Shown piece by piece: positions 34,829-50,757 of a stretch of DNA of 64,000 bases; positions within the stretch are counted from its first letter, which is position 1; every line of letters starts with the position of its first letter. Where the stretch lies: the NCBI RefSeq assembly GCF_013181195.1, contig NZ_SMZP01000009.1:62001-126000 (forward strand), given 5' to 3'. The notes below the pieces were generated by a model. That model was given only the letters and a program-made list of their open reading frames with translations. It was not told where the DNA came from and did not search any database. Both the position numbers and the translations under genes were made by a program. The DNA is from Caulobacter sp. RHG1 (GTDB lineage: Bacteria > Pseudomonadota > Alphaproteobacteria > Caulobacterales > Caulobacteraceae).

Positions 34829-34857
34829 CCTTCTGAAAAAAAGTTTGCGGCCCGCGT

Positions 34858-34884: not shown

Positions 34885-34931
34885 GGGTCAGGCGCCTGGA
34901 CGGACGGCGCCGACCAACAGGGGATCTCTTC

Positions 34932-37900
34932 GTGAAATCGTTCTTCATGGCTGGCGTTGCGCCGGTCGCCATCGTCGCCTTCATGGCGGCGACGCCCGCC
35001 CTCGCGCAGGACGTTCGCTTCGACGTGCCGGCCCAGCCCGCCGCGTCGGGCGTCGCCGCCTTCGCCAAGCAGGCCGACATCCAGCTGATCATCTCGGCCC
35101 GCGACGCCGAAGGCCGCCGGACGAACGCCGTCACCGGGACCTTCACTGTACAGTCCGGCCTTCAGCGCCTGCTGGCTGGCGCTGGCCTGACCACGCGGAT
35201 GATCGACGCCCGCACCTTCGCCGTCGTGGCCGAAGAGGGCGTGATCCGCACCGCCTCCGCCGAGCCCGAGATGGTCGAGACCGTGGTCGTCACCGGCTCG
35301 CGCATCGCCCGCACCGGCTTTGACGCCTCAACCCCGGTCAGCGTGCTTAGCGCCGAGGACTTTCGCATCTCCGGCACGACCAATGTCGAGGAGCTGCTGA
35401 ACGACTCGCCGCAGTTCGTGCCGTCTACCAATGGCGGCGCCTATGGCAATGTGGTGCCCGGCGGTTCGGCCGACTTGAACCTGCGCGGCTTTGGCGCGTC
35501 GCGGAACCTGGTGCTGGTCAACGGCCGCCGCTTCACGGTCAACGGGCCCGAACTGGTCACCGACATCAACACGATCCCGTCGTCGCTGATCAAGCGGACC
35601 GAGATCGTCACCGGCGGGTCGTCGGCCGTCTATGGTTCTGATGCGATCACCGGCGTGGTCAACTTCATCACCCGCGACGACATCGACGGGATCGAGCTGA
35701 ACGCCCAGGCCAGCTTTGACAGCCCGACCCGCACCCCGACCTACAATGTCGACCTCTCGGGCGGCCGCAAGTTCGCCGACGGCCGCGGGCAGGTCATCGC
35801 CTCGCTGAACTATCTGGATCGCGGCGCCATGACCCGGGCCGAGCGCGGCGACTTCGCTCCGCAGTGGATGGTTAATGGCTGCGTCACCGCCGCCAGCTGG
35901 CGCAAGAACGGGGTGGGCACGCCCATGACCGTTCCGGCCGGCTCCAATTGTCGCGCGGCCGGCGGCCTGCCGGGCCTGATCGCCAGCGGCAGCGGCGACA
36001 TCCCCAACGGCCGCTTCACCGGCGTGCCGCTGCCCGGCTCGACGGCCTCGAACGCGGCGCTGAACGCGGCCCTGACGGCGGCGGGCCTGGGCGGGCTGGG
36101 CTCGCGCGGCTTCACCTTCAACGACGCGGGCAGCACCGTCCGCCCGGCGCTGACGCCGCAGGACGACTACAACCTGCAGCCCGACAACTACCTGATCGTC
36201 CCGCAGCAGCGGGTGATGTTCAATTCCTTCGCCCACTACGACCTGAACGATCGCGCGACGGTCTATGGCGAGGTCCATTTCAGCCGCAACAAGGTCGACC
36301 AGCAGCTGGCCCCGTCCAGCATCAGCGGTCCGTTCCTGTTCAACATCAACAACCCCAACCTGTCGTCGGAGATGCGCGAGGTCCTTCGTCAGCTTGATCT
36401 GAAGGAGACGAGCGCAACCACTGTGGTCACCGGCCCGACCTCGATGGTCAACCGTCCGGGCGACGGCCTGGCGGCCCTGAGCATCGCCCGTCGCCTGCTG
36501 GAAGTCGGCGTGCGTCGCAACATGACCAAGCGCGACGTCTTTCGCGGCGTGGTCGGCGTGAAGGGCGACCTGCCCGACGCCTCGACCTCGTTCCTGACCA
36601 ACCTGTCCTACGACCTCTATTACAGCTACGCCGACACCCAGCAGACCGACACCCAAGCCGGCAACGTCTCGCGCAGCCGCTTCCAGGCGGGCCTGCTGTC
36701 GGCCAATGGCGCCGCGCCGCTGCTGAACATCTTCGGCCAGAACCTGTCCCAGGCGGGCGTCGACTCGATCATCATCGCCTCGACCACCAACGAGGTCGAA
36801 ACCCGCCAGCAGGTGGCCGCCGCCAACCTGTCGGGCGAGGCCTTCCGCCTGCCGGCCGGCCCGGTCGGCTTCTCGCTGGGCGCGGAGTGGCGCAAGTCGT
36901 TCGCCGGCGTCTCGCCCGACGCCAACCTGGTGAACGGCGACGTCGTGGGCTTCAATCCCGGCCTGCCGTCCAGCGGCTCGATCACCGCCAAGGAGATCTA
37001 CGGCGAGGTGCGCGCCCCGCTGTTGGCCGATCTGCCGCTGGTCCAGAACCTGACCGCCAACGCCGCTTTTCGCTATTCGGACTATAGCCTGAAGGGCATC
37101 GGCGGGGTCTGGACCTATCTGGGCGGCCTGGAGTGGCGCGTGAACCCGGACGTCGCCCTGCGCGGCCAGTTCCAGCGCGCCGTCCGCGCCCCCAATGTCG
37201 GTGAGCTCTATGCCGGTCTGTCGACCAGCAGCAGCGCCGCCGTCGACCCGTGCTCGAACCGTCAGCCGGTCGCGGCCCGCACCGCCGCCGTCCGCGCGCT
37301 CTGCATTGCCATGGGCGTGCCGGAAGGTCAGGTGTTTGGCGCCGGCGTTCAGCCCAACGAGACCATCACCGCCGTCTATGGCGGCAGCGATCAGGTCGGC
37401 GTCGAGGAGTCCGACACCAAGACCTTCGGCGTGGTGCTGACGCCGCGCATCGTTCCAAACCTGGCGGTCAGCGTCGACTATTTCGATATCGAGCTGAAGG
37501 GCGCCATCGCGCCCCTGGGCGGCGGCCTGAACAACACCCTGAACCTCTGCTACAACATCGTGCAGAACCAGAGCAGCGAGTTCTGCCAGGCCATCGCCCG
37601 CAACCCGCTGACGGGCGAGATCAGCAATCCCTATTACGTGCAGATCCGCTCGGCCAACACGGGCGCACTGAAGACCTCTGGCGTCGATTTCGCGGCTCGC
37701 TATCGTTTCGGCATGGACTGGGGCTTCGACGGCGCGAGCCGCTTCGAGGTGGCCAGTAACTGGACCTGGACCAAGGAGCTGGTCTCGACCCCGGTGCAGG
37801 CCTTCCCGAACGTGCAGAACAACTGCGCCGGCGCCTATGGCACCACCTGCGGCGAGCCGGTCCCGCGCCTGAAGGGCGTCACCCGCCTGACCTGGAGCAG

Positions 37901-38213
37901 CGGCCCGCTGACCCTCAGCCTGCGCGGTCGCTACATCGGCAAGGTCACGGTCGACACCTACGTGCTGCCCAGCCGCTCGGGCCTGCCGACGCCGGACCTG
38001 GCCGACCTGACCAACCCGGTGCTCAAGGCGCGCGGCTATCTCGACCTGTCGGGCGCCTGGGACGTCAGCAAGGCCCTGCGCCTGTCGGGCGGGATCGACA
38101 ACCTGCTGAACAGCGATCCGCCGATCGTCGCCAACCCGCGGGCCAACACCTATCCGACCACCTATGACGCGCTGGGCATGCGCTTCTATCTGGGCGCCTC
38201 GATGAGGTTCTGA
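34932..38213 (+). CDS. TonB-dependent receptor with STN signalling domain (third triad)
   Basis: A 1093-residue receptor starting at GTG. Signal peptide (MKSFFMAGVAPVAIVAFMAA, cleavage near ALAQ), then an STN domain at about residues 30-100 (FDVPAQPAASGVAAFAKQ, SGLQRLLAGAGLTTRM). The TonB box (VETVVVTGSRIARTGFDAS) and plug with NVEELLNDSPQFVP, LNLRGFGASRNLVLVNGRR and TGGSSAVYGSDAITGVVNFI are of the type common in the large 1000-residue Caulobacter and Sphingomonas receptors. The barrel ends FYLGASMRF. The STN domain fits the FecR gene just upstream. The neighbouring downstream genes concern purine nucleosides, but with a terminator hairpin and a 321-bp gap between, the link is uncertain. Confidence 0.93.
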   Translation: MKSFFMAGVAPVAIVAFMAATPALAQDVRFDVPAQPAASGVAAFAKQADIQLIISARDAEGRRTNAVTGTFTVQSGLQRLLAGAGLTTRMIDARTFAVVAEEGVIRTASAEPEMVETVVVTGSRIARTGFDASTPVSVLSAEDFRISGTTNVEELLNDSPQFVPSTNGGAYGNVVPGGSADLNLRGFGASRNLVLVNGRRFTVNGPELVTDINTIPSSLIKRTEIVTGGSSAVYGSDAITGVVNFITRDDIDGIELNAQASFDSPTRTPTYNVDLSGGRKFADGRGQVIASLNYLDRGAMTRAERGDFAPQWMVNGCVTAASWRKNGVGTPMTVPAGSNCRAAGGLPGLIASGSGDIPNGRFTGVPLPGSTASNAALNAALTAAGLGGLGSRGFTFNDAGSTVRPALTPQDDYNLQPDNYLIVPQQRVMFNSFAHYDLNDRATVYGEVHFSRNKVDQQLAPSSISGPFLFNINNPNLSSEMREVLRQLDLKETSATTVVTGPTSMVNRPGDGLAALSIARRLLEVGVRRNMTKRDVFRGVVGVKGDLPDASTSFLTNLSYDLYYSYADTQQTDTQAGNVSRSRFQAGLLSANGAAPLLNIFGQNLSQAGVDSIIIASTTNEVETRQQVAAANLSGEAFRLPAGPVGFSLGAEWRKSFAGVSPDANLVNGDVVGFNPGLPSSGSITAKEIYGEVRAPLLADLPLVQNLTANAAFRYSDYSLKGIGGVWTYLGGLEWRVNPDVALRGQFQRAVRAPNVGELYAGLSTSSSAAVDPCSNRQPVAARTAAVRALCIAMGVPEGQVFGAGVQPNETITAVYGGSDQVGVEESDTKTFGVVLTPRIVPNLAVSVDYFDIELKGAIAPLGGGLNNTLNLCYNIVQNQSSEFCQAIARNPLTGEISNPYYVQIRSANTGALKTSGVDFAARYRFGMDWGFDGASRFEVASNWTWTKELVSTPVQAFPNVQNNCAGAYGTTCGEPVPRLKGVTRLTWSSGPLTLSLRGRYIGKVTVDTYVLPSRSGLPTPDLADLTNPVLKARGYLDLSGAWDVSKALRLSGGIDNLLNSDPPIVANPRANTYPTTYDALGMRFYLGASMRF

Positions 38214-38534
38214 CGGCGAGGGCGGCCGCGGCGTATCTCCCCCTCGCACCGCGGCCGTCCGATCCATCCAGGGGTTGTAGAACGTTTCCAGGCTTGGTGT
38301 TGAGGCGAGTCTGATTCTTCTGCGGGCGTCGCTCCGGGACGCCGCTGTATGCAGCAGGCGCAGGCGCCGCCTGCCCAGTCCAAGGTCACCACGAAGTAAG
38401 AGTTTATTTCACTTCCCTGCTTGCTTGACCCTGCTTCGGTCGAAGCCTTTGCATCCCATCAGGACACGCCATTGCGACGTCCGGGGGGCCGCGCTCGTGA
38501 GTGTTCACGCGGCCGAGTAGGGGAGTGAGTGAGC
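38214..38534. other. 321-bp intergenic region between third triad and NUP gene
   Basis: It holds a hairpin at its left end (listed separately), a second weak inverted repeat (GGCGTC with GACGCC around 38325-38345), a locally AT-richer stretch near 38395-38415 (AAGAGTTTATTTCACTT) and a TTGACC around 38427 that could be a -35 box without a good -10 partner. I see no open reading frame with coding character. Confidence 0.5.
38223..38257 (+). terminator. hairpin after the third STN receptor
   Basis: CGGCCGCGG at 38223-38231 pairs exactly with CCGCGGCCG at 38249-38257 around a 17-nt loop. No T-run follows. It is probably a transcript end or stabiliser. Confidence 0.5.
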
Positions 38535-39590
38535 ATGTTGAACCTGTCCGCCTGGACGCGCCGGTCGTTGCTGGCTGCGGCGTTCGCGGGAGTCGCGGCG
38601 ACGTCCGCGCTCGCACAGGCCCCGGCCGCTCCTGCGCCTGCGCCCGCCACGGCGGCAGCGCCCATTCCGATCCGCGTCGTGGTCGTCACGGCCTACGCCC
38701 TGGAAGACAAGGCCTGGATGGCGCAGGCGCCGCAGAAGCTGGATTTCCCCAATGGCGTCGCGCCGTTGGGCTATGATCCGGCCAAGGGCGTCCTGATCCT
38801 GCGCACGGGCGTGGGCACCAACCACGCCGCCATCACCACCTTCGCTTTGGGCGCGGACCCGCGTTTCGACCTCTCCAAGGCCTACTGGGTCATCGCCGCT
38901 ATCGCCGGGGTAAACCCGGACGAGGCTTCGCCCGGCTCGGCCGCGTGGATCGGCAACGTGATCGACGTCGACTTCGGCAAGTGGGTCGATCCGCGCGAAG
39001 CGCCGCCGGAATGGGTGGGCGGCTATCCGCCGTTCGAGCCGCCGCGCGCCGACCGGCCCAGCAGCGTCTACTATCCGCTCAACATCGGCCTCCGCGACTG
39101 GGCGTTCAACCTGACCAAGGACACGCCGCTGCCGGACACCGAGGCGCTGAAGACCGCCCGCGCGCCGTTTTCAAGCTTCCCGAACGGCTCCAAGCCGCCG
39201 TTCGTGCTGACCGGCGATGAAATCTCGGCCCAGGCCTACTGGCACGGCGCGATGCTGACCAAGCGCTACGCCAAGCTCACCACCGACTACAGCGGCGGCA
39301 AGAGCCGGTTCATCATGACCGCCATGGAAGACACCGGCGTAGCCAACGCCCTGCGTCGTCTGACGGCCGTCGGCAAGGCCGACTACGACCGCCTGGTCGT
39401 GTTGCGCACGGCCAGCAACTATTCGCAGCAGGCCCCAGGCGAGAGCCCGGTCGACAGCATGAACCGTCCCTATGCCGGGGTCGGCGACGCCGCCGCCTAC
39501 GCCGCCCATGTGGTGGCCGGCAAGGTGGTCAACGAGCTCTCGGGCAACTGGGCCGTCTATCGCGACAAGATTCCCGGCGCCGGGAAGTGA
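38535..39590 (+). CDS. purine nucleoside permease (NUP) family protein, exported
   Basis: A 351-residue protein of the NUP family. The ATG at 38535 has GGGGAG 9 nt upstream; a GTG two codons earlier is less well spaced. A signal sequence with two arginines (WTRRSLLAAAFAGVAATSAL) is followed by a Pro/Ala linker, then the conserved blocks DPRFDLSKAYWVIAAIAGVN, PGSAAWIGNVIDVDFGKWVD and MTAMEDTGVANALRRL. Apart from the signal there is no membrane-spanning segment, so the name permease is doubtful. The block LILRTGVGTNHAAITTFALG resembles the phosphate-binding part of nucleoside phosphorylase folds. A periplasmic nucleoside-binding or cleaving protein is more likely. Neighbours are a receptor, an adenosine deaminase and a phosphorylase. 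Confidence 0.88.
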   Translation: MLNLSAWTRRSLLAAAFAGVAATSALAQAPAAPAPAPATAAAPIPIRVVVVTAYALEDKAWMAQAPQKLDFPNGVAPLGYDPAKGVLILRTGVGTNHAAITTFALGADPRFDLSKAYWVIAAIAGVNPDEASPGSAAWIGNVIDVDFGKWVDPREAPPEWVGGYPPFEPPRADRPSSVYYPLNIGLRDWAFNLTKDTPLPDTEALKTARAPFSSFPNGSKPPFVLTGDEISAQAYWHGAMLTKRYAKLTTDYSGGKSRFIMTAMEDTGVANALRRLTAVGKADYDRLVVLRTASNYSQQAPGESPVDSMNRPYAGVGDAAAYAAHVVAGKVVNELSGNWAVYRDKIPGAGK

Positions 39591-39805
39591 AGACCTGAAA
39601 CGGCGGACCGGCCTTCACGCCGGTTCAGCCGCGAGGACGCGCAACGGCGTCCCGACCGTTGGGGGAAGCAACCGGAGACTCTGACCTCGTGGCTTGCCGC
39701 GCGCCTCGTCGCGCGTGGACGCAGCCTGGGGCGCAGTAGGCGTAACGGCTTCAGTTCGGTGTGGCTCGGGGGGACCGCAGGCGCACCACCATCCAGGGGA
39801 CCCAG
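39591..39805 (+). promoter_or_regulatory. 215-bp structured leader before the Oar-like receptor
   Basis: Two hairpins are visible: ACCGGC/GCCGGT at 39607-39624 and CGCGCG/CGCGCG at 39698-39715. The remaining 90 bp are G-rich with GGGG tracts (near 39730 and 39768) before an AGGGGA Shine-Dalgarno at 39795-39800. I see no match to a known riboswitch core. A terminator for the NUP gene plus a promoter is the simple reading. Confidence 0.35.
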
Positions 39806-42800
39806 ATGCGACACCTATATGCTGCAAGCGCCATTGCGCTTGCCCTGTCAGCCACCGCGACGGCGGTGGTCGCTCAAGAAACGACTTCCTCGATCCGCGG
39901 CTCGGTCAGCGCGGCCGGCGCGTCCGCCGTCGGCGCCAGCATCAGCGCGGTGCACGAGCCGTCCGGCACGACCGCCAGCGCCACCACCAACAGCGCCGGC
40001 GCCTTCAACCTGACCGGTCTGCGTCCCGGTGGTCCGTACACGGTTACGGTGACCGCGCCCGGCTTTGCGCCGGTGACCTCGCAAAACCTCTTCCTGACGG
40101 TCGGCCAACCCTACAACCTGCCGATCGCCATCGGCGAAAGCCAGGTCGACGAGCTGGTGGTCACAGCCAGCCGCGCCGAGCGCTCAGGTCCGATGGTTTC
40201 GGTGTTCGACCGCGACAGCATCGCCAGCGTCGCCTCGGTTTCGCGCGACATCCGCGACATTGCCCGCCGCGACCCGTTCGCTTCGTTCAACCCCAGCACG
40301 CGTGGCGTCTCGATCGCCGGTCAGAACGGCCGCACCAACCGCTTCTCGGTCGATGGCGTGCGCTTCTCGGACAACTTCGGCCTGAACCAGGGCGGCCTGC
40401 CCAGCGCCCGGGGCCCGATCCCGCTGGACGCCGTCGAGCAGTTGTCGGTCAAGATCGCGCCCTACGACATCTCGGAAGGCGACTTCCAGGGCGGTTCGAT
40501 CAACGTCGTCCTGCGCTCGGGCGGCAACAAGTTCACCGGCGCCGCCGGCTACACCTATTCCGACGACAGCCTGATGGGGACCAAGTCGAAGGGCAGTTCC
40601 TTCTCGCAGGAGATGACGTCGAAGACCTATAACGGCTTCATCTCGGGCCCGATCATCAAGGACAAGCTGTTCTTCGCGTTCGCCTACGAGAAGCTGAACG
40701 AGACGGTCCCTGCGGTGTTCGGCGCGCCCGGCACCGGCAACGCCGTGCCCAACCTGACCCAGTCCCAGATCGACCAGGTCAGCTCGATCGCCAAGAGCGT
40801 CTACGGCTACGACACGCTGGGCGTGGCCACCAGCCGTCCTGAAATGGACAAGAAGTGGACGCTGAAGCTCGACTGGAACATCAACGACAATCACCGCCTG
40901 TCGTACTCGACCATCCAGAACAAGGGCGAGACGGTCGCGCTCAGCGGCGGCAGCTCGTCGATCACGTCGCCGGGCCTGGGCCTGGCGTCCTACGCCACCC
41001 ACGAACCCGAGCGGGTCGAGACCCACGCGCTGCAGCTGAACTCGACCTGGTCGAACGCCTTCAGCACCGAACTGCGGGTCAATTATCGCGACTCGATGAA
41101 AGCCCCGATCTCGTTCGGCTCGCCGGGCTACAGCGACATCACCGTCTGTCTGGATCCGACCTCGGTCGGCTCGCTGAACCAGTGCACTCAGACCGGAACG
41201 CCGCGCCTGGTGTTCGGCACGGAGGCCTTCAGCCACGCCGACATCGTCGGCCAGAAGCAGTACGGCGCCGAGTTCGTCGCCCGCTACAATCTCGGCGACC
41301 ACGCCTTCAAGCTGCACGCGGCGTACAGCAAGCTGAAGATCACCAACACCTTCGTGGCCAATTCGCTGGGCACCTACTACTTCGACTCCGTCGCCGACTT
41401 CCAGGCGCGCCAGGCGGGCCAGCTGCTCTATCAGTACTCGATCACCGGCTCGCTCGCGGATGTCAGCGCCAGCTTCAACTACGACCAGATCACCTTCGGT
41501 CTGCAGGATAGCTACGACATCTCGCCGGAGCTGAACGTCACAGCCGGCGTCCGCTTCGACGGCTACAAGATGGACGACCAGGCGCCGCTGAAGCAGTCGT
41601 TCGTCAACCGCTACGGCTTTGCCAACAACGCCAATATCGACGGCAACCTGGTGGTCCAGCCGCGCGTGGGCCTGACCTGGCGCCCGACCGACCGTCTGAC
41701 GGTTCGCAGTGGCCTGGGCCTGTTCAACGGCGGCTCGCCGGACGTCTTCGTCGGCAACAGCTTCTCGGCGGCCGGGGTGTTCACCAACACCATCACCGTC
41801 GGTCGCGCGGTCGGCGGCACCGGCTGCACCATTCCGGCCACCGTGGCCAATGCCGCGGCGATCTGCAACGCGGCGCTGAACAACGTCCAGGGCAACAAGA
41901 TCGACCCGCTCGTTCTGAGCTATCTGCAAACCAACACCGCGGCCCTGGCTGCGTCGCCGACCTCGTTCATGTCGCCGACCTTCAAGCTGCCGGCGCAGTG
42001 GAAGGCCAATCTGTCGCTCGACTACATGGCCGACTTTGGTGAGCGCCTCGGCGACGGCTGGCGCTTCGGGGCTGACCTGTTCTACGGCCAGACCGACAGC
42101 GCGGCCTACTACATCGATCAGCGCCTGACCCAGGTCGGCACGGCCCCGGACGGTCGTCCGATCTATGCCGACACCTACACCAACACGGCCAACAGCGACC
42201 TGGCCATGAAGTACACCGACAGGGGCAAGTCGCTGATCGCTGTCGCCCGCGCCAGCAAGTCGTTCGACTTCGGCCTGGATACCGGCATCAGCTACACCTA
42301 CTCGGACGTGAAGTCCCTGTCGGACATGGGCAGCTACGCCTCGGGCGGTTCGACCGCCAGCGGCACCTATGGCGGCCAGCCGATGTTCGACCCGAACAAT
42401 CCCGCCTACGGCCGGTCGAGCTATGAAGTGCGCGACAACTGGAAGTTCAATATCGACTACAGCCACGCGTTCTTCGGCGACTACAAGACCAGCTTCAACC
42501 TGTTCGGCGAGCTGCGCTCGGGTTCGCCCTACAGCCTGACGATGAACACCACGGCGTCCAACAGCCGCTCGACCCTGTTCGGCACGACCGGCGGCACCAA
42601 CCGCTACCTGCTGTATGTGCCGGACGTCTCCAGCATGACCGCCGACTCCAAGGTCACCTATGCGTCGACCGCGGTGTACGAGGCCTTCCGCGCCTTCGTG
42701 CAGGGCAACGATCTGGCCCAGGGCGTGATCGGCAAGAACACCGAAAAGTCGCCGGACTACTTCAAGGTCGATCTGCACATCGAACAGGAACTGCCGGTGC

Positions 42801-43048
42801 CGCTGCTGCCCTCGGCTCGCTTCAAGCTGTTCGGCGATGTCGAAAACGTCCTCAACCTGATCAACAGCGACTGGGGTTCGTACCGGACCTACAACCCGCT
42901 GACCTCGGTGGTGAACGTCGCCTGCGCTCAGCAGGTCGGCAGCAACTGCAACCAGTACTCCTACACCGCCTTCACGGCCCCGACCCTGCAGGCCAACGCT
43001 CAACTGGGCGTCTGGCGGATGCGTCTGGGCGCTCGCTTCGAGTTCTGA
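39806..43048 (+). CDS. Oar-like TonB-dependent receptor with carboxypeptidase-regulatory domain
   Basis: A 1080-residue receptor. I start it at the ATG at 39806 with AGGGGA 5 nt upstream; the frame is open 15 codons further. Signal peptide (RHLYAASAIALALSATATAV to AQ), then a CarboxypepD_reg-like domain at about residues 28-105 (RGSVSAAGASAVGASISAV, GAFNLTGLRPGGPYTVTV). The plug is Oar-like (TRGVSIAGQNGRTNRFSVDG, PLDAVEQLSVKIAPYDISEG, GGSINVVLRSGGNKFTG), and the barrel ends WRMRLGARFEF. No STN domain. It sits between NUP and adenosine deaminase genes in one direction, so nucleosides or nucleic-acid fragments are the likely cargo. That is inference. Confidence 0.92.
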   Translation: MRHLYAASAIALALSATATAVVAQETTSSIRGSVSAAGASAVGASISAVHEPSGTTASATTNSAGAFNLTGLRPGGPYTVTVTAPGFAPVTSQNLFLTVGQPYNLPIAIGESQVDELVVTASRAERSGPMVSVFDRDSIASVASVSRDIRDIARRDPFASFNPSTRGVSIAGQNGRTNRFSVDGVRFSDNFGLNQGGLPSARGPIPLDAVEQLSVKIAPYDISEGDFQGGSINVVLRSGGNKFTGAAGYTYSDDSLMGTKSKGSSFSQEMTSKTYNGFISGPIIKDKLFFAFAYEKLNETVPAVFGAPGTGNAVPNLTQSQIDQVSSIAKSVYGYDTLGVATSRPEMDKKWTLKLDWNINDNHRLSYSTIQNKGETVALSGGSSSITSPGLGLASYATHEPERVETHALQLNSTWSNAFSTELRVNYRDSMKAPISFGSPGYSDITVCLDPTSVGSLNQCTQTGTPRLVFGTEAFSHADIVGQKQYGAEFVARYNLGDHAFKLHAAYSKLKITNTFVANSLGTYYFDSVADFQARQAGQLLYQYSITGSLADVSASFNYDQITFGLQDSYDISPELNVTAGVRFDGYKMDDQAPLKQSFVNRYGFANNANIDGNLVVQPRVGLTWRPTDRLTVRSGLGLFNGGSPDVFVGNSFSAAGVFTNTITVGRAVGGTGCTIPATVANAAAICNAALNNVQGNKIDPLVLSYLQTNTAALAASPTSFMSPTFKLPAQWKANLSLDYMADFGERLGDGWRFGADLFYGQTDSAAYYIDQRLTQVGTAPDGRPIYADTYTNTANSDLAMKYTDRGKSLIAVARASKSFDFGLDTGISYTYSDVKSLSDMGSYASGGSTASGTYGGQPMFDPNNPAYGRSSYEVRDNWKFNIDYSHAFFGDYKTSFNLFGELRSGSPYSLTMNTTASNSRSTLFGTTGGTNRYLLYVPDVSSMTADSKVTYASTAVYEAFRAFVQGNDLAQGVIGKNTEKSPDYFKVDLHIEQELPVPLLPSARFKLFGDVENVLNLINSDWGSYRTYNPLTSVVNVACAQQVGSNCNQYSYTAFTAPTLQANAQLGVWRMRLGARFEF

Positions 43049-43064
43049 TTGGTATAGCTTAAGC

Positions 43065-43096
43065 AACGGCCTCGGCGTTCGCGCCGAGGCCGTTTT
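43065..43096 (+). terminator. intrinsic terminator after the Oar-like receptor
   Basis: AACGGCCTCGGCG at 43065-43077 pairs perfectly with CGCCGAGGCCGTT at 43082-43094 around a TTCG tetraloop; the stem's closing TT runs into two more T residues. One of the best-formed terminators in the window. It ends 17 bp before the deaminase start, so the deaminase may rely on read-through or its own promoter. Confidence 0.85.
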
Positions 43097-43112
43097 CATA
43101 TGGGGGAAGCGC

Positions 43113-44726
43113 ATGACGTCTGCATCGAAGATGGACGCACACAAGATCACTCTGGCGGCGCTGTTCGCCGCGACCTGCCTGGCGTCGGGCGCGCCGGCCT
43201 TGGCCCAGACGGCGCCGGATCCCGCGCTGGACGCGGTCTTCGCCAAGGCCGCGGCTTCGCCGCCGCTGCTGCGCCTCCTGCTGACCAAGCTGCCCAAGGG
43301 CGCGGACCTGCATAACCACGCGGGCGGCGGCACCTATGCCGAGGACTTCATCGCCTGGTCCGCGGCGGCGGGCGGCTGCTTCTCCAAGACGACCCAATCC
43401 CTGGTCGCCGCGCCTTGCGGCGCCGACGGCAACGCCGATCTGGTGGTGCTGAAGGGCCTGCCTGAACGCGACCCCGACCTCTACAGCGACATTGTCGACG
43501 CGCTCTCCACGCGTCGGTTCGAGCAAGGCGTGGGCGAGCCGGAAATCTCCGGCCACCGCCGGTTCTTCCGCACCTTTGGCCGTTCGGGCCGGGGCGGGGG
43601 CGAAGACAAGGGCGTGCGCATCCAGGCCGAGGCCCTGCGCCAGGCCGCGCTCGACAACACTCTTTATCTGGAGCTGATGGCCGGCTCGAGCGCCTCGCGC
43701 GCGGTGATCGAAGCGTCGGCCGCGATCCCGTGGACCGACCCATGGGTCCAGACGAGCGACGGCTCGCCGCCTCAGCGCCTGGATGCGAAGATCCTGCAGG
43801 CGCGCCTGGACCAGCTGAAGCCGGTGATCGCCAAGGCTACGCCGGCCGCGACCGTCGGCGCCGACGCCAACGACAAGGCCATCGCCGCTCTCAATCGCTG
43901 CGGCACGGCCAAACCGGAGGCCGCTTGTGACGTCACCCTGCGCTATCTGCTGTCGATTTCGCGCCAGCGCCCGCCCGAGGTGGTGTTCGGCCAGATGGCC
44001 GCCGCGTTCGCCCTGGTGAAGGCCGATCCGCGCTATGTCGGCATCAACATCCTGGAGCCCGAGGACGGTCCGGTGTCGGTGCGCGACTACCGTCTGCATA
44101 TGCGCCTGTTCGCCTTCTTCAAGACGCTCTATCCGGACGTGCCCCTGACCTTGCACGCAGGCGAGCTGGCCATGGGCCTGACCCCGCCGCGCGATCTGCG
44201 CTTCCACATCACCGAAGCGGTCGAGATCGCCGGCGCCAAGCGCATCGGTCACGGCGTGGCGGTCGCCTACGAGGACGACGCCGACAAACTGCTGGCGCGC
44301 ATGGCCAAGGACAAGATCGCCGTCGAGATCAACCTGACCAGCAACGACGTCATCCTGGGCGTGAAGGGCAAGGACCATCCGCTGCCGCTGTACATGGCGG
44401 CCGGCGTGCCGGTGACCCTGTCGACCGATGATCTGGGCGTCTCGCGCAGCGACCTGACGCACGAGTACATGCGCGCCGTCCTGGAGCAGGGCGTCAGCTA
44501 CGGCCAGCTCAAGCAGATGTCGCGCAACAGCCTGACCTACTCGTTCCTGCAGGGCGCCAGCCTGTGGGATGGCCCGTGCGCCAGGCTGAACGCTTCGACG
44601 CCGACCGCGCCCTGCGATGCGGTGCTGAAGGCCAGCCCCAAGGCGCGCGATCAATGGCGCCTGGAGCGGGCCTTCGACAGCTTCGAGGCCGAAATGAAGG
44701 CCATCGTCCCGAAGCTTGCCCCGTAG
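43113..44726 (+). CDS. adenosine deaminase, long exported form
   Basis: A 537-residue enzyme that converts adenosine to inosine. It carries a signal sequence (KITLAALFAATCLASGAPA, cleavage near LAQ) and is longer than cytoplasmic Add (about 330-350 residues), closer in length to secreted ADGF-type deaminases. The zinc and catalytic residues are all present: His67 and His69 in ADLHNHAGGG, His348 and Glu351 in LTLHAGEL, His380 in RIGHGVAV and Asp439-Asp440 in LSTDDLGV. GGGGAA lies 6 nt before the ATG at 43113; an ATG six codons later is possible. The export signal is the unusual feature. It is flanked by an Oar-like receptor and, convergently, a purine permease. Confidence 0.92.
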   Translation: MTSASKMDAHKITLAALFAATCLASGAPALAQTAPDPALDAVFAKAAASPPLLRLLLTKLPKGADLHNHAGGGTYAEDFIAWSAAAGGCFSKTTQSLVAAPCGADGNADLVVLKGLPERDPDLYSDIVDALSTRRFEQGVGEPEISGHRRFFRTFGRSGRGGGEDKGVRIQAEALRQAALDNTLYLELMAGSSASRAVIEASAAIPWTDPWVQTSDGSPPQRLDAKILQARLDQLKPVIAKATPAATVGADANDKAIAALNRCGTAKPEAACDVTLRYLLSISRQRPPEVVFGQMAAAFALVKADPRYVGINILEPEDGPVSVRDYRLHMRLFAFFKTLYPDVPLTLHAGELAMGLTPPRDLRFHITEAVEIAGAKRIGHGVAVAYEDDADKLLARMAKDKIAVEINLTSNDVILGVKGKDHPLPLYMAAGVPVTLSTDDLGVSRSDLTHEYMRAVLEQGVSYGQLKQMSRNSLTYSFLQGASLWDGPCARLNASTPTAPCDAVLKASPKARDQWRLERAFDSFEAEMKAIVPKLAP

Positions 44727-44735
44727 GGCTTTGAG

Positions 44736-44761
44736 TGGCGGCGGGCCTCAGCCCGCCGCCA
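44736..44761. terminator. bidirectional hairpin between deaminase and permease genes
   Basis: GGCGGCGGGC at 44737-44746 pairs exactly with GCCCGCCGCC at 44751-44760 (4-nt loop), extended by a T-A pair. It spans the stop codon and last codons of the minus-strand permease. No T-run follows in either direction. Confidence 0.6.
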
Positions 44762-46106
44762 TCCAGACGAAGCGGGCCACGAACAGGCCGGCCAGCACGA
44801 ACAGCAGCCAGTCGCCGCGCTTGGCCTGGCCGCGCACGATCTTCAGCGCCGCGAAGGCGGTGATGCCGAACGCCAGCCCGTTGGCGATCGAGAAGGTGAG
44901 GGGGATGATGATCAGCGTCAGGAACGCCGGCACGGCCATATAGGCGTCGTCCCAGTCGACCTCGGCCAGCGGGGCCATCATCAGGCCGCCGACGATGATC
45001 AGGGCCGGGGCGGTGGCCGCCGCCGGGGCCAGCTGAGCGTAGGGCGCGACGAACACCGCCAGCAGGAACAGGATGCCGGTCACCACCGAGGCCAAACCCG
45101 TGCGACCGCCGGCCTGTACGCCCGCGGCGCTTTCGACATAGCTTGTCACGGTGCTGGTGCCGGCCATGGCGCCGACCATGGTGGCCACCGAGTCGGTGGT
45201 CAGGATCTTGTTCAGGCCAGGGATCTTGCCGGCCGCGTCGACCAGGCCGGCGCGCTTGGTCACCGCCACCAAGGTGCCGATGTTGTCGAAGATGTCGACG
45301 AACAGGAAGACGAAGATGATCTCGATCAGGCCCAGGCCGTGCCCGCCGCCGAAGCCCAGGGCCCCGGCGATGTCCAGCTTGAACGCCGTCTCGGTCAGGG
45401 CCGTCAGGCTGTAGGGCTGGGGCGTGAAGTGCACCTGGCCGCACAGCCAGGCCACGATGCTGGTGACGACGATGCCGATCAGCAGCGCGCCCTTCACCCG
45501 CCAGGCGCTGAGGCCGGCGATGACGAGAAGGCCGAGCAGGGCCAGGGCGGGGCCGGGCTGCTTGAGATCGCCGATGGCTACGAAGGTCGCCGGGTTGGCG
45601 ACCACGATGCCGGCGTTCTTCAGGCCGATAAAGGCGATGAACAGGCCGATGCCGCCGGCGACGGCGGCGAACAGGTGCACGGGAATGGCGGCGATGATCA
45701 TCTGCCGAATGCCGGCCACGGTCAGCAGCAGGAAGATCACGCCCGACAGGAAGACGCAGCCCAGGCCGACCTGCCAGGGCACGCCCATCTGCAGCACGAC
45801 GGTGTAGGTGAAGTAGGCGTTCAGACCCATGCCGGGCGCCAGGGCTAGGGGCACGTTGGCCACCAGGCCCATGGCCAGGGTGGCGAAGCCGGCGGCGATG
45901 CAGGTGGCCACAGCCACGGCGGCGACCGGCAGGCCCGCGTCCGACAGGATCGCCGGGTTGACCATGATGATATAGGCCATGGCGATGAAGGTCGTCGCCC
46001 CGGCCAGGATCTCGGTGCGCACCGTCGAGCCGCGCGCGCTGATCCCGAAATGACGGTCCAGCGCTGCCGTCTTTGCTGGCGCGCCCGGCGCCGTCTCACC
46101 ACTCAT
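44748..46106 (-). CDS. AzgA-type purine permease (guanine/hypoxanthine/adenine)
   Basis: A 452-residue inner-membrane transporter of the NCS2/AzgA family with about 12 predicted helices. Start at the ATG at 46106, giving MSGETAPGAPAKTAALDRHF; the frame is open 17 codons more. Family motifs: GATTFIAMAYIIMVNPAILS, ALAPGMGLNAYFTYTVV, VFLFVDIFDNIGTLVAVTKR and TSTVTSYVESAAGVQAGGRT, the last being the signature of AzgA/PbuG purine base:H+ symporters. In the block it would bring hypoxanthine, adenine or guanine released in the periplasm into the cytoplasm. It is convergent with the deaminase and divergent from the phosphorylase, sharing a 172-bp promoter region with the latter. Confidence 0.94.
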   Translation of the reverse strand: MSGETAPGAPAKTAALDRHFGISARGSTVRTEILAGATTFIAMAYIIMVNPAILSDAGLPVAAVAVATCIAAGFATLAMGLVANVPLALAPGMGLNAYFTYTVVLQMGVPWQVGLGCVFLSGVIFLLLTVAGIRQMIIAAIPVHLFAAVAGGIGLFIAFIGLKNAGIVVANPATFVAIGDLKQPGPALALLGLLVIAGLSAWRVKGALLIGIVVTSIVAWLCGQVHFTPQPYSLTALTETAFKLDIAGALGFGGGHGLGLIEIIFVFLFVDIFDNIGTLVAVTKRAGLVDAAGKIPGLNKILTTDSVATMVGAMAGTSTVTSYVESAAGVQAGGRTGLASVVTGILFLLAVFVAPYAQLAPAAATAPALIIVGGLMMAPLAEVDWDDAYMAVPAFLTLIIIPLTFSIANGLAFGITAFAALKIVRGQAKRGDWLLFVLAGLFVARFVWMAAG

Positions 46107-46239
46107 GGCTATTCCCGATCCTTCACCGTGCCCCCGAGGAGGGCGCCGGTACGCCAATAACAGGGCAATTCACGGCAGATGCGCCGCTGGCCCGCGAAGA
46201 GGCGCGCGTCTCGGCGACGGGCGGCGGCCTTCGTGGCTA

Positions 46240-46255
46240 GACACATAGCCGTGTC
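46240..46255. promoter_or_regulatory. palindrome in the permease/phosphorylase divergent promoter region
   Basis: GACAC at 46240-46244 and GTGTC at 46251-46255 form a 16-bp interrupted palindrome, 24 bp before the phosphorylase start and 134 bp before the divergent permease start. It may be an operator. I see no second copy in the purine block. Confidence 0.25.
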
Positions 46256-46278
46256 GCGATGGCGTGGGGTTTTGCATA

Positions 46279-47259
46279 ATGAAGCTGTTACTTACTGGCC
46301 TGCGATCGGCGGCCGATGCTGAAAGCGTTGGCGCGGTTCGCTCATCCCGCGGGCGCCTTGCCGGTCTGGCCCTGAAGCTCGCCGCCGGCATCGGCTTGGC
46401 CAGCGTGTTGGCGGCGGCCTCGGCGGCCTCGGCCCAGGTCGTGGCGACACCGCCGTGCAAGGCGACGATCGCTGTCATCGGCGGCACCTATCTGAACGAC
46501 GCGCTGCTGAACTCCAGCTATCTCGGCGCGAAGTTCCGCATCCAGACGCCGGTCGGCGAGTCGCCCGAGATCGTCTGCGGCAAAGCCAATGGCGTCGACT
46601 TCTACTATGTTCACGGCCACGGTCAGGGCCGCTGGGTCGAGACCTGGACGGCGCTCTACAAGATGGGCGTCAAGGAAGCGATCGGCGGCGCGACGGCCGG
46701 CGGCATCAATCCCGAGATGAAGACCGGCGACTTCGTCGTGCCCAGCGACTTCATCGACTTCAATATCTCGCGCCCGCGCGGCCTGCCCAAGAGCATCTTC
46801 CCTGCTGGCGAGACCATCCTGCCGCGCTACGTGCCGGCGACCGATCCGCTGCTGGACGACATCCTGCTGGACGAGACCCGCAAGCGCCTGACCGGCGACG
46901 CGACCCGCAAGGTTCACAAGGGCGGGGTGGTGATCCAGGCGGCTGGCGGCCGCTTCGAGACCCCGGCCGAGATCCGCTTCTTCAAGCAGATCGGCGGCGA
47001 CATGGTGACCATGAACGTAGGCTCGGAGATGTCCTACGCCCGTATGGTCGGCATCAACTACGCCAGCCTGGTGGTGATCTCGAACCCGGCCGAGGGCTTG
47101 GGAGAGTGGAAGTTCGAGGACCTGACCACGATCTACCGCGCGCTGAACAAGGTCTCGCTGGACGTGGTGATCGCCGCCTTGCCGCGCATCGCCGGCCTGG
47201 CCGGAAAGCCCCGGGTCGGCGACGCGCTTCGGGTGCATCCGGAGATGACCAGCAAGTAG
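46279..47259 (+). CDS. exported purine nucleoside / methylthioadenosine phosphorylase homologue
   Basis: A 326-residue phosphorylase-family protein. The ATG at 46279 has GGGG about 8 nt upstream; an in-frame GTG lies five codons earlier. The N-terminus has a long leader (LAGLALKLAAGIGLASVLAA to ASAQ), so it is predicted exported, which is unusual for this normally cytoplasmic family. The core matches MTAP/PNP enzymes: AVIGGTYLNDAL near the start, VKEAIGGATAGGINPEMKTG, GRFETPAEIRFFKQIGGDMV, and NVGSEMSYARMVGINYASLV, which includes the ribose-binding Met/Glu region. It would split nucleosides such as inosine into base and ribose-1-phosphate. It ends 2 bp before a convergent gene with no terminator. 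Confidence 0.88.
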   Translation: MKLLLTGLRSAADAESVGAVRSSRGRLAGLALKLAAGIGLASVLAAASAASAQVVATPPCKATIAVIGGTYLNDALLNSSYLGAKFRIQTPVGESPEIVCGKANGVDFYYVHGHGQGRWVETWTALYKMGVKEAIGGATAGGINPEMKTGDFVVPSDFIDFNISRPRGLPKSIFPAGETILPRYVPATDPLLDDILLDETRKRLTGDATRKVHKGGVVIQAAGGRFETPAEIRFFKQIGGDMVTMNVGSEMSYARMVGINYASLVVISNPAEGLGEWKFEDLTTIYRALNKVSLDVVIAALPRIAGLAGKPRVGDALRVHPEMTSK

Positions 47260-47261
47260 CC

Positions 47262-48389
47262 TCAGGCCGTCTTGCCGGCGGCGGGCAGGGGTGTTGATTT
47301 GCCCTTGGTCGCCGCCTTCTTCTTGCGCTTGGGCAGGCCGCTGGGATTGCCCCAGAAGGTCACCACGGCCAGCGTGCCCAGCAGGGTCAGGGCCAGGCCC
47401 GACACCGTCATCACCAGGCGATAGGGCAGGCCGCCGACCTTGGCCGCATGCAGCGGGAAGTCGGCGTTGGTGATCCGCGAGCCCAGGGGCAGGGTCTGGG
47501 CGTCGCGGGTGGCGACCATGCGGCCGTCGGCGGGATCGAACCAGGCCATGGTCCGACCATTGGGCAGCCACTCTGCCTGTTGGCGCAGGCGCATCGAGAT
47601 CAGCCCGCCCGCCTTGGCCGGTGGGGTGATGATCCGCACCTCGGCGCCGGGATAGCGGGCCTGGGCCGCGCCGATGATCTTGGCCCAGTCCAGGTTCTTG
47701 GCCGGCTTGCCGCCCTTGATCTTGGGCGCCGCCGAGGCCTTGGCCATCTCCGACGGCGCGGTGAACGGCGCGCGCAAGGCTTGCGAGAACCATTTCAGGT
47801 CCATGGTCGCGCCGGTGGTCAGGGAAATGATCAGCAGCGGCGCGACCAGCACGCCCAGGTCGCGGTGATGATGAACGATCGCCGCCCGCTTCATCATCCG
47901 CGGCCAGGCGCGCAGGTGGAACATCCGCCGGGTCGGCCACCACAGGATCAGGCCGGTGACGACGAAGGCGAGACCCGCCAGGCCCGCGATGCCGCCGATG
48001 GTCTTGCCCGTGTCGCCGGCGAACAGGTGGTGGTGAAAGTCGAGCAGCCAGACCTCGGGCCGCGCCCACTTGGACGTCCAGGCCATAACGATCGCGCCGT
48101 CCTGGTCGGTATAGGCGGCGCGTTCGCTGTCCTTGTAGCTGAGCCTGTGCAGCCCCTGGTCGGCGGACGCCAGCACGATCGAGCGCGGACGGTCTTGCGC
48201 GGCGAAGACCCGCGTCGCCGCCGCCGCCAGGCTGGCGGTGTCCTGCCGCTGGGCGTCGGCGGCATGGGGCACGGTGGCGCGCAGGAAGGCGTCCTCGTGC
48301 ACCAGCAGCGCGCCGGTGAAGCCCAGGATCGCCAGCAGGAGGCCGATCAGGCCCCCCGTCCAGCGGTGCAGCAGGCGCAGGGTCTTCAT
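47262..48389 (-). CDS. PepSY-associated membrane protein (PiuB-like)
   Basis: A 375-residue inner-membrane protein with four predicted helices: HRWTGGLIGLLLAILGFTGA, GGIAGLAGLAFVVTGLILWW, LGVLVAPLLIISLTTGATMD and YRLVMTVSGLALTLLGTLAV. Conserved His clusters lie in LLDFHHHLFAG and AIVHHHRDLG. The family is often encoded beside siderophore receptors and is thought to take part in reduction or release of iron from siderophores; FoxB-type members reduce ferrisiderophores. The ATG at 48389 shares one base with the stop of the upstream receptor gene, so the two are co-translated. The frame is open 87 codons further upstream, but that part is receptor sequence in another frame. Confidence 0.9.
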   Translation of the reverse strand: MKTLRLLHRWTGGLIGLLLAILGFTGALLVHEDAFLRATVPHAADAQRQDTASLAAAATRVFAAQDRPRSIVLASADQGLHRLSYKDSERAAYTDQDGAIVMAWTSKWARPEVWLLDFHHHLFAGDTGKTIGGIAGLAGLAFVVTGLILWWPTRRMFHLRAWPRMMKRAAIVHHHRDLGVLVAPLLIISLTTGATMDLKWFSQALRAPFTAPSEMAKASAAPKIKGGKPAKNLDWAKIIGAAQARYPGAEVRIITPPAKAGGLISMRLRQQAEWLPNGRTMAWFDPADGRMVATRDAQTLPLGSRITNADFPLHAAKVGGLPYRLVMTVSGLALTLLGTLAVVTFWGNPSGLPKRKKKAATKGKSTPLPAAGKTA

Positions 48390-50569
48390 CAGAAGCGCGT
48401 TTCCCAGCCCAGGGTCGCGGTGCGGCCGCGGCCGGCGTAGAACTTGTCGCGCGCGGGCAAGGTCGTGTCCGAGTGGTAGGTGATGTACTGCTTGTCCAGC
48501 AGGTTCTGGACGCCCAGCGACAGCGCCCCGACCGGCAGTTCGTACCGCACGAAGGCGTCGGCGACCGTGTAGCCGTTGAAATCGTCCTTCACCGTCGCGG
48601 TCTGCATGTTGCGCGACATGTACTTCTGCACCTGCAGGCGCAGGGCCCACTTGCCGGTCTGGTAGTCGGCGGCCAGGTTCAGGCGGTCGGGCGAGATGTT
48701 GGCGCCGTCCAGATCGGTGTCCATCTTGCCGTCGCGGTTGGTGTCGGTCTGGCCGCGCAGACGGGCATAGCCGGTCGAGACATCCAGGCCGGGCACGGGC
48801 GTGCGGGCCCGCACATTGACCTCAAGGCCCTCGATGGCCACGCCCTGGCGCTGGACGTCGAAGATGCCGCTGGCGTTGCGGACCAGGAACTGGCCGTACT
48901 TCGACTTCGACCAGAAGTAGGCCACGCTGGCGTCGAACGGGCCGCGCTTGAACTCGGCGCCGATCTCGCGGTTGTTGGACACGATCGGCTCGATCGCCAC
49001 GTAGGTGTCGACGTCCTGGTTGGGGATGTTGATGCCGCGCAGGATCCGGCCCACGTCTGGCACCGTGTAGCCCTCGGCATAGCTGGCATAGGCGCGCAGG
49101 CCCTTGGCCGGCTCGAACACTACGCCGCCATTGACCAGGGTGGCCTTGAATTCGGGCGAGCCGCCGCCGACCTGGCGCGAGCCGTAGGAGGCCAGGGTGG
49201 TGAAGTCGTCGACCTTCAGCTTGACGTTCTCGAAGCGCACGCCGCCGGCCAGGCGCAGCTTGCCGTCCAGCAGGGCGTAGTTGCCCTGGATGAACGGGGC
49301 CAGGCTCTGGAACTTGGTCGGGGGCACCCAGGCGCGGCCCGTGGCGGTCAGCAACTGGGCGGTGGTGTCGGTCAGGGCGTCCAGGCCGGCGGTGGCGACC
49401 AAGCCCTCGATCCCCGGCACGGCGCGCTCATAGCTCATCCGCGCGCCCAGCTTGCGCGAGCGGTTGGCGGACTGGTCGAACAGCGTGCCGATCGGCGCGA
49501 TGCTGGCGTCCTGGAAGGTGGCGCTGATGTCGCCGCCGAAGGTGTCTCGCGTGCGGTTGAAGAACAGCTGGGCGTTCAGCACGCCGCCGTAGAGGTCGTC
49601 ATTGACCAGCGACGCCGACAGCGTCTCGACGCGGTTGGCGGCCGGGTCGCCGGGGACCTCGCCGCGGAAGGACGTGGTGGGCAGGCGCGCGGCGATGTTG
49701 GCGTCCGTGGGCAGGATCGCGCTGGCCGGCGTGCGCCCGGCGACCGGGGCGGTGATGTAGTCGCCGTCGCCCTTCAGCTCGAAGCGGCTGCCGACCACGT
49801 CCAGGCGGGTGCTGGGGCTGAGCTGCCAGCCCACGCGGGCGAACAGCGACAGGGTCTTGGAGTCCTGGACGTCGCCTTGGGCGGTGTCCATGCCGATGCG
49901 GCGGCCGTTGCCGTCATAGAAGGCGCCGCGGGTCTCATAGGCGACGCCGGCGGTGGCGTCGAACGCACCGCCGCGCCAGCCGACCAGGCCGGCGACCTTG
50001 CCGCCCACCGAGTCGCCCAGGTCGTCGCCGCCGCTGGCCTGGATGAGGGTGCGGCCCGAGACGCCGTCCTGCTTGGGCGGGCCGACCGTCACCTGGTTGA
50101 CGACGCCGCCGGTGGCGCCGATGCCCTGCAGGGCGTTGGAGCCGTAGATCAGCTCCACGCGGTCGATGAAGAAGGCGTCGATCGTGTAGCCGTCGCGCGA
50201 GCCGTCGCGGATCGGCGTCGACTGCGGGATGCCGTTGATGGCGTACAGCGGCGAGCGGCCGCGCAGGCTCTCGCCCGCGCCCGACAGCTTCTGGCGCGTG
50301 GGCGAGAACGACGGCGACAGGGTCGAGACGGCGTCGATGATCGAGCCGCTGATCGCTACCTGTTGGTTGAGGGTGGCGTTGTCGACGACGTCCACGGTCA
50401 GGGGCAGGGCGCTGGCCGGCAGGATGGTGCGAGCGGCGGTGACCACGACCTGATCGACATCGCTTTCCTGGCCGCGGGTCTGGGCGGCGGCGGCCTGGGC
50501 GAGCGCCGCGAGGCTGAGGCCGGCGAGGCAAGCCAGCCGAAGGCGGGTGTGGGAAACTTGCTTGGTCAT
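48389..50569 (-). CDS. TonB-dependent siderophore-type receptor
   Basis: A 726-residue receptor, close to the usual length of ferric-siderophore receptors and shorter than the glycan-type ones here. Signal peptide (RLRLACLAGLSLAALAQAAA to AQ), TonB-box region (VDQVVVTAARTILPASALPL), plug with ESLRGRSPLYAINGIPQSTP, FIDRVELIYGSNALQGIGAT and a barrel ending TATLGWETRF. No STN domain. The start at 50569 is the ATG followed by the signal; the frame runs upstream across the promoter. A Fur-like palindrome lies 50 bp before the start, and a PepSY-TM gene follows with a 1-base overlap. Uptake of an iron-siderophore is the best prediction. Confidence 0.92.
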   Translation of the reverse strand: MTKQVSHTRLRLACLAGLSLAALAQAAAAQTRGQESDVDQVVVTAARTILPASALPLTVDVVDNATLNQQVAISGSIIDAVSTLSPSFSPTRQKLSGAGESLRGRSPLYAINGIPQSTPIRDGSRDGYTIDAFFIDRVELIYGSNALQGIGATGGVVNQVTVGPPKQDGVSGRTLIQASGGDDLGDSVGGKVAGLVGWRGGAFDATAGVAYETRGAFYDGNGRRIGMDTAQGDVQDSKTLSLFARVGWQLSPSTRLDVVGSRFELKGDGDYITAPVAGRTPASAILPTDANIAARLPTTSFRGEVPGDPAANRVETLSASLVNDDLYGGVLNAQLFFNRTRDTFGGDISATFQDASIAPIGTLFDQSANRSRKLGARMSYERAVPGIEGLVATAGLDALTDTTAQLLTATGRAWVPPTKFQSLAPFIQGNYALLDGKLRLAGGVRFENVKLKVDDFTTLASYGSRQVGGGSPEFKATLVNGGVVFEPAKGLRAYASYAEGYTVPDVGRILRGINIPNQDVDTYVAIEPIVSNNREIGAEFKRGPFDASVAYFWSKSKYGQFLVRNASGIFDVQRQGVAIEGLEVNVRARTPVPGLDVSTGYARLRGQTDTNRDGKMDTDLDGANISPDRLNLAADYQTGKWALRLQVQKYMSRNMQTATVKDDFNGYTVADAFVRYELPVGALSLGVQNLLDKQYITYHSDTTLPARDKFYAGRGRTATLGWETRF

Positions 50570-50618
50570 GACGCCCTCGGAACGGCCTGGATTCAAATGT
50601 CGCCGCCGTATGCTGTGA

Positions 50619-50635
50619 TTGCGACTGATTTGCAA
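50619..50635. promoter_or_regulatory. Fur-box-like palindrome upstream of the siderophore receptor
   Basis: TTGCGACTGATTTGCAA is a 17-bp imperfect palindrome; the right half (ATTTGCAA) fits the alphaproteobacterial Fur-type pattern TTGCAAAT-N-ATTTGCAA exactly, and the left half differs at two positions. The flanking A and T extend the symmetry to 19 bp. It lies 50 bp upstream of the receptor ATG on the minus strand and about 120 bp before cstA. Confidence 0.5.
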
Positions 50636-50757
50636 TATTGAGAAACGCTCATTTGCTGGCCGTGACTTTGAAGCCACGCCTTCCCGGAAGCGGGCAAAAC
50701 TCTTTAAGAACCTTCGGAGCGCGTCGCGGCCGGCGCGCATCGGGAGGATCCGCGATC

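Follow-up and report, generated by a model that had tools for sequence, protein, structure and literature searches.

Nucleosides and other products of nucleic acid breakdown are, in some described systems, processed before they reach the cytoplasm, and these are the systems closest to the five-gene block treated here, which lies at positions 38535-47259 of a 64,000-nucleotide stretch from Caulobacter sp. RHG1 (hereafter, the window, meaning that whole stretch). In the plant apoplast, nucleosides are hydrolysed by an IUNH-type enzyme, NSH3, and the base is then taken up. Degradation outside the plasma membrane by an extracellular nucleoside hydrolase of the Arabidopsis apoplast is described in PMC4688390, and it is in this respect that the plant system resembles the Caulobacter block, from which it differs in its enzyme family and in having neither an outer membrane nor a TonB step. 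A periplasmic stage is also found in the use of extracellular DNA by Vibrio cholerae, in which periplasmic nucleotidases act before NupC, so that intact nucleosides cross the inner membrane (PMC4723616); unlike it, the Caulobacter cassette would cut the nucleoside first, and it encodes a base permease.

The individual proteins have described counterparts as well. The secreted ADGF/ADA2 proteins (CECR1) of animals and Dictyostelium have the ADA fold and the metal and catalytic residues of the window deaminase, and solved CECR1 and Helix pomatia ADGF structures are among its structural-database matches. They are also exported like it (PMC10358891). Unlike them, the window deaminase remains below the cut-off of the ADGF model and is part of a bacterial TonB-linked cluster. 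As for the NUP family (PF06516), we take its founder to be CaNUP, the “purine nucleoside permease” of Candida albicans. CaNUP has been reported to enable adenosine use by yeast (PMC9431476), which gives the permease name functional backing in fungi. The bacterial members have the family name in common with it, but they look exported and soluble and show similarity to the phosphorylase superfamily. In the open-licence PMC literature, among the 40 papers listed of 78, no mention was found of a periplasmic adenosine deaminase, nucleosidase or nucleoside hydrolase; subscription papers lie mostly outside that scope, so this does not prove that such a route is unpublished.

We consider it likely that the Caulobacter block is a cassette dismantling purine nucleosides outside the cytoplasm. 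An Oar-like TonB-dependent receptor (TBDR) would bring purine nucleosides, or a close relative of them, into the periplasm; an exported deaminase, recognisable by its family and its residues, would convert adenosine to inosine there; a PNP-like protein and/or NUP, both with export signals, would, in a reaction that may be hydrolytic or phosphorolytic, cleave the N-glycosidic bond, the former protein belonging to the PNP family and the latter having a predicted fold, to yield hypoxanthine or guanine; and an AzgA-like permease, judging from its family, would move the freed base into the cytoplasm. Compartment, receptor substrate, enzyme activities and reaction type are here predictions from sequence. 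A periplasmic salvage route of this kind had been proposed in a sequence-only reading of the window, and its general outline is supported by conserved gene neighbourhood and conserved export signals, although five points had to be corrected: the rarity of the full gene set, the role of NUP, the phosphate ligands that the PNP-like protein has lost, the existence of other routes in the genome, and the substrate of the receptor, which is deduced from gene neighbourhood.

The five proteins and their export signals

The window sits on contig 18 of a 5.63-Mb genome, and all five genes are intact and together fill the block. The five families are those originally claimed, each with a Pfam match above the cut-off. 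The true starts of the receptor (39806) and the permease (46106) lie one codon before those of the listed open reading frame translations P0002 and P0004. In what follows, L-numbers denote genome stretches fetched for comparison and G-numbers sampled genomes.

Table 1. Features of the block, in window coordinates
Feature	Position	Strand	Basis
NUP-family (PF06516) soluble protein with export signal; candidate periplasmic purine nucleosidase	38535..39590	+	PF06516
Oar-like TonB-dependent outer-membrane receptor (TBDR); candidate nucleoside receptor	39806..43048	+	CarboxypepD_reg + OMP_b-brl_4
Terminator-like hairpin in the receptor/deaminase gap	43065..43096	+	by eye from sequence
Adenosine-deaminase-family enzyme with export signal and six cysteines in three local pairs	43113..44726	+	PF00962, signal, residues
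AzgA-like purine base permease, inner membrane	44748..46106	-	PF00860, hydrophobic stretches
PNP/MTAP-like protein, N-terminally extended, with export signal	46279..47259	+	PF01048
Whole block, collinear in Caulobacter sp. 602-1 (L041)	38341..47260	.	blastn, 85% nucleotide identity

The deaminase matches PF00962 with 90.6 bits (E 1.3e-25, cut-off 27) and begins with a Sec-type signal peptide that, as read from the sequence, ends in APALAQ. It had been said to keep all zinc and catalytic residues, and it does: H67, H69, H348, E351, H380, D439 and D440 (motifs HxH, HAGE, GH and DD) are unchanged throughout the 16 deaminases aligned, a set that includes the second ADA of the same genome. Curated models are not reached (TIGR01430, 81.3 against a cut-off of 216.55; the ADGF model TIGR01431, 48.6 against 315); adenosine is the probable substrate. 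Six cysteines at paired spacings occur in 22 of 25 deaminases, the window one included (eight in L036, four in L037 and L039), which would suit an oxidising compartment; the eight NUPs counted have none, and the PNP-like proteins of the window and L041 have two each.

NUP scores 265.3 bits against PF06516 (E 8.8e-79, cut-off 27), and its Sec-type signal peptide reads TSALAQ at its end. No 19-residue stretch of it reaches the hydrophobicity threshold, against 13 in the AzgA-like permease, in a crude count that misses even the signal peptide of NUP. The window protein matches a futalosine hydrolase model under the cut-off (E 2.4e-4), and the second NUP of the genome (C17:237729; PF06516, 249 bits) matches PF01048 above it (39.8 bits, cut-off 25.1) over overlapping residues. 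PMC9815663 counts NUP matches inside the purine/uridine phosphorylase superfamily. Five residues (E57, H237, E265, R291 and N295) are kept in an alignment of 12 NUPs. By eye, the motif around E265 resembles the ME motif of methylthioadenosine (MTA) nucleosidases, where it binds ribose. A profile of the 12 NUPs found nothing significant in the PDB (best E 0.8), and AlphaFold models from two-row alignments (window and L041) were unusable, with a mean pLDDT of 32.9 for NUP and 32.3 for the PNP-like protein. Due to the lack of membrane segments and to the phosphorylase-superfamily match of the second NUP, NUP is here probably no permease, and is best read as a soluble protein of that superfamily and a second candidate for nucleoside cleavage.

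The PNP-like protein belongs to PF01048 (87 bits, E 1.6e-24, cut-off 25.1), as do the purine nucleoside and MTA phosphorylases (PNP and MTAP), but it stays below the cut-off of the MTAP model (103.9 bits against 274.85) and of the PNP models. Among solved proteins, MTAPs and RsfP come closest to it (E about 1e-14), with PNPs ranking at the top for its C-terminal two thirds. It has E227 and N269, the latter followed by AEGL, an arrangement that xanthosine phosphorylase and the solved PNPs also show, in positions where MTAP has S and D. An E and N pair recognises the base in 6-oxopurine PNPs, and for this reason inosine or guanosine would be favoured. The phosphate-binding set of MTAP comprises T18, R60, H61, T93 and T197. 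Compared with it by eye, the PNP-like protein keeps T70 and H114, whereas R60 is replaced by G113, T93 by A138, as in PNPs, and T197 (S220 of PNP) by N246, so that the set is incomplete, with the arginine and one further ligand lost. Because of these losses the protein may be a hydrolase, and we take hydrolysis to be as likely as phosphorolysis. With the known phosphorylases it has in common the family and the base-recognition pair; it differs from them in its export signal and in the loss of the phosphate arginine. Its long N-terminal extension is common to the L041 relative; the MTAP-like genes without signal near the deaminases of L037 and L039 are distinct from it.

The permease matches PF00860 (143.5 bits, E 9.8e-42, cut-off 27) and is 62-63% identical to the NUP-adjacent permeases of L038 and L040. 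No NCBIfam model matched it, so that the name AzgA, taken from the sequence-only reading, is a presumed one. The receptor combines PF25183 (OMP_b-brl_4, 115 bits, cut-off 30) with PF13620 (CarboxypepD_reg, 65.6 bits, cut-off 32.3), an architecture that we take to be what is called Oar-like; the description as an Oar-like TonB receptor is upheld by both matches, its Plug domain reaching 17.9 bits, below the cut-off of 23.9. Its gene neighbourhood makes it a candidate nucleoside carrier.

Export signals were scored with a home-made rule (positive charge, a hydrophobic 9-mer, then a small-residue site or a lipobox), trying several candidate start codons for deaminases, NUPs and background genes alike. 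The background consisted of the other genes around deaminases, with deaminase and NUP rows excluded and with truly exported proteins and false frames included. Of the deaminases, 23/24 pass, all strictly, and of the NUPs 15/16, 14 of them strictly and L080 weakly; several carry lipoprotein-type signals. With equal start freedom, 93 of 249 background genes pass (60 strictly) within 95 codons, and 76 of 249 (53 strictly) within 60. The rule is loose, yet the contrast is clear. The failing NUP (L079) has an apparently broken or misread N-terminal frame, and the failing deaminase (L031) looks export-like by eye. Signals of deaminase orthologues, of Sec or lipobox type, recur down to 36% identity, and the second ADA of the genome (C1:827427) has none anywhere in its full open frame. 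Four AzgA rows and three PNP-family rows (L037, L039, L041) fail, the L041 PNP-like relative passing only from residue 37. At the phylum-wide loci the N-termini of deaminases and NUPs are mostly export-type by eye, with L102, L121 and L122 not clear-cut. For the window, export signals had been claimed on the products of three enzyme or enzyme-like genes, and they are indeed present, on NUP and deaminase from the annotated starts and on the PNP-like protein behind its extension, where the signal ends in AASAQ as read from the sequence.

Conservation of the block and of its gene families

A scan of genome contigs with the PNP-like protein as query gave a single relative, that of Caulobacter sp. 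602-1 (L041), where the five genes are collinear, with 81-92% protein identity, and where the blastn match to the window, at 85%, runs from 38341 to 47260 and stops at both ends. The block is one evolutionary unit. The ratios of nonsynonymous to synonymous substitution (dN/dS) against L041 are 0.098 for NUP, 0.144 for the TBDR, 0.161 for the deaminase, 0.120 for AzgA and 0.169 for the PNP-like gene, and these low values (0.10-0.17) imply that all five genes are maintained by purifying selection. Within the genus, the NUP-TBDR-deaminase trio occurs in 7 of 75 genomes, counting the own genome and G585, whose cassette is split over two contig ends. This trio is the core of the cassette, to which AzgA and the PNP-like gene are a pair added in two of the seven cassette genomes found.

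In the order sample, 16 of 150 genomes have NUP, and in 11 of these 16 it directly adjoins an AzgA relative (G116, G042, G146, G066, G141, G091, G101 and G136 by coordinates, and G022, G086 and G050). With the own genome and G026, where the distance is within about 6 kb, the number rises to 13 of 16, and the remaining three (G057, G060 and G046) have no AzgA in the 20 kb around NUP. In four stretches of the same genus (L088-L091) NUP and, downstream of it, AzgA share a strand, and their frames either overlap or have three bases between them; two of these stretches (L090 and L091) have on the other side of NUP an exported member of the MTA/S-adenosylhomocysteine (SAH) nucleosidase family. The L091 enzyme scores 92.4 with TIGR01704 (cut-off 73.8) and 141.7 with NF004079, below the cut-off of 169, and the ME and D motifs known from solved nucleosidases are present in it; relatives of it are found near NUP in L030, L031 and L092. 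In these three stretches and in L036, NUP is accompanied by a second type of TonB receptor and by a guanine-deaminase-like gene, to which deaminase, MTAN-like enzyme, AzgA and xanthine dehydrogenase are variously added. Among the 19 deaminase-bearing genomes of the order, seven have NUP and/or AzgA in the fetched stretch. A side observation concerns G022, where a Pycsar-effector-like membrane protein (PycTM, PF18967; L040:11034-11573) is encoded beside an exported deaminase.

Outside the order, 12 stretches were fetched, and three of them, from the same phylum but another class, presumably the gammaproteobacteria, rebuild a cluster with guanine deaminase and/or xanthine dehydrogenase. L140 has xdhB, xdhA, AzgA, NUP, an exported deaminase and a receptor with 51% identity to the L030 one; L148 has two NUP genes along with guanine deaminase, an L030-type receptor and an exported deaminase; and L138 has an Oar-like receptor with the domain architecture of the window, an exported deaminase, guanine deaminase, xdhA and xdhB. 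Sphingomonadales could enter through the class sample and the phylum samples. Out of 398 genomes of the phylum sample, 13 have the deaminase (E 1e-30), 26 have NUP (25 above the cut-off) and five have both, a co-occurrence with a one-sided Fisher p of 7e-4 in a test that ignores relatedness and does not count the diverged deaminases of L140 and L148. The conservation of the neighbourhood in related genomes, whose absence had been set beforehand as a refutation of the proposed route, is found: the block is kept in Caulobacter and its families cluster again elsewhere. The five-gene set is rare, however, and the core consists of three genes.

We give about even chances to a wider reading, in which several proteobacterial classes have purine utilisation loci organised in the manner of those for polysaccharides. 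In such loci, a TonB receptor would let intact nucleosides (in certain cassettes perhaps cyclic AMP, cAMP) into the periplasm, the exported ADA-type deaminase, NUP and an MTAN-like or PNP-like nucleosidase would dismantle them, and only the base would cross the inner membrane, the bacterial NUP being an exported nucleoside-cleaving enzyme.

Contrary evidence and rival explanations

A number of observations weigh against the proposed cassette. Few genomes have the full gene set (2 of 75 in the genus), and the PNP-like gene occurs in 1 of 150 order genomes (E 1e-30) and 1 of 385 class genomes (1e-25), each time the own genome. Twelve of the 19 deaminase-bearing order genomes have neither NUP nor AzgA in the fetched stretch, some of these being cut by contig ends. 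Eight of the 12 stretches outside the order hold only the deaminase or NUP used as bait, and a further one (L139) holds deaminase and guanine deaminase only; of the five phylum-sample genomes with both genes, three (G480, G629 and G902) show no linkage between deaminase and NUP. At the 20 places examined of the 29 found phylum-wide, no AzgA lies within 1.5 kb of NUP, and an L030-type receptor does so at three. To this are added the altered phosphate site of the PNP-like protein, the high background of the home-made signal rule (37% of 249) and the failure of the PNP-like protein to pass it from the annotated start, which is due to about 26 residues standing before the hydrophobic core, so that it passes only from residue 20. 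Finally, a terminator-like hairpin separates the receptor and deaminase genes. It is perfect, with 11-13 pairs, a UUCG loop and a short T tail, and may cause partial termination or attenuation of transcription; the terminator scan, which requires at least five T, missed it, finding 4 terminators against 4.1 expected by chance, and no promoter-like sites were found in the scan for them.

The route also looks dispensable, because the same genome encodes other means of using nucleosides: two CNT transporters, three NupG-family matches (one strong, a NupG-type symporter with 490.6 bits, and two weaker) and five matches to the IUNH family of nucleoside hydrolases. These rule out the idea of a genome unable to import whole nucleosides, and the notion of the block as the sole route of the genome has to be abandoned; the cassette is a parallel route. 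Separately, one of the five IUNH proteins, a distant member of the family (C17:27550-28401, L134), passes the signal rule and is a further exported candidate, while the other four fail, and an MTA/SAH nucleosidase-type protein with a signal-like N-terminus is encoded elsewhere in the genome (C13:350149-350958, L123).

What other compound could such a cassette serve? Extracellular cAMP or another adenine nucleotide as the real substrate is unlikely in our estimation, but it is the alternative to which we give most weight. An exported class-II phosphodiesterase would yield AMP, the deaminase would act on AMP, or on adenosine after dephosphorylation, and NUP would remove the base. In five of the seven cassette genomes (L041, L073, L074, L075 and L076) a class-II cAMP phosphodiesterase gene adjoins NUP, upstream and divergent, and on account of this neighbour cAMP or AMP comes into question as a competing or further substrate. 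The L041 (1003-2193) and L074 proteins match PF02112 with 140.4 and 131 bits (cut-off 23.7), the other three were assigned via 73-89% identity, and inspection by eye shows a signal-like N-terminus in L074, in L076 and, when an internal start is assumed, in L041. Among solved proteins, moreover, the Helix pomatia AMP deaminase ranks third in similarity to the window deaminase (E 2.2e-10); it is an ADGF said in PMC10358891 to prefer AMP. However, no phosphodiesterase gene was found in the window, in L072 or in the other cluster stretches, a search that did not extend to the rest of the RHG1 genome; the other clusters neighbour guanine deaminase and xanthine dehydrogenase instead, and none of the five block genes encodes a 5'-nucleotidase.

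Less probable still is that the exported enzymes serve to remove a signal or a poison (adenosine, cytokinin-like or methylthio-nucleosides, or nucleoside antibiotics) rather than nutrition. The nearest model to the PNP-like protein by score is MTAP, relatives have an MTA/SAH nucleosidase-family enzyme beside NUP, and some deaminases have no NUP or AzgA nearby, all of which would fit such a function; nevertheless, genes for guanine deaminase, xanthine dehydrogenase and a base permease are linked to them, which speaks for catabolism, and a clustered TonB receptor would bring the compound in instead of excluding it. As for a third explanation, that these are ordinary cytoplasmic salvage enzymes with misread N-termini and an unrelated receptor alongside, we find it very improbable: the signal of the PNP-like protein is of atypical length and the background of the rule is high, but the recurrence of signals in distant deaminase orthologues, set against the signal-less second ADA, argues against it, as do the paired cysteines and the conservation of the block. 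A periplasmic cassette for purine nucleosides remains the reading that we prefer.

Neighbouring genes and implications

Directly upstream of the block (33292-38213) are the genes for an extracytoplasmic function (ECF) sigma factor, a FecR anti-sigma protein and a TonB receptor. The N-terminal STN domain of this receptor reaches 27 bits, just under the cut-off of 28.4, and the three together are likely a cell-surface signalling set. Directly downstream, on the minus strand (47262-50740), a PepSY membrane protein and another TonB receptor are encoded.

If the reading is correct, purine nucleoside breakdown, which is usually described as cytoplasmic, would be periplasmic in Caulobacter and its relatives. 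It would also point to a class of TonB receptors as candidates for nucleoside uptake and, for the NUP family, would turn what is annotated as a permease into an exported nucleoside-cleaving enzyme.

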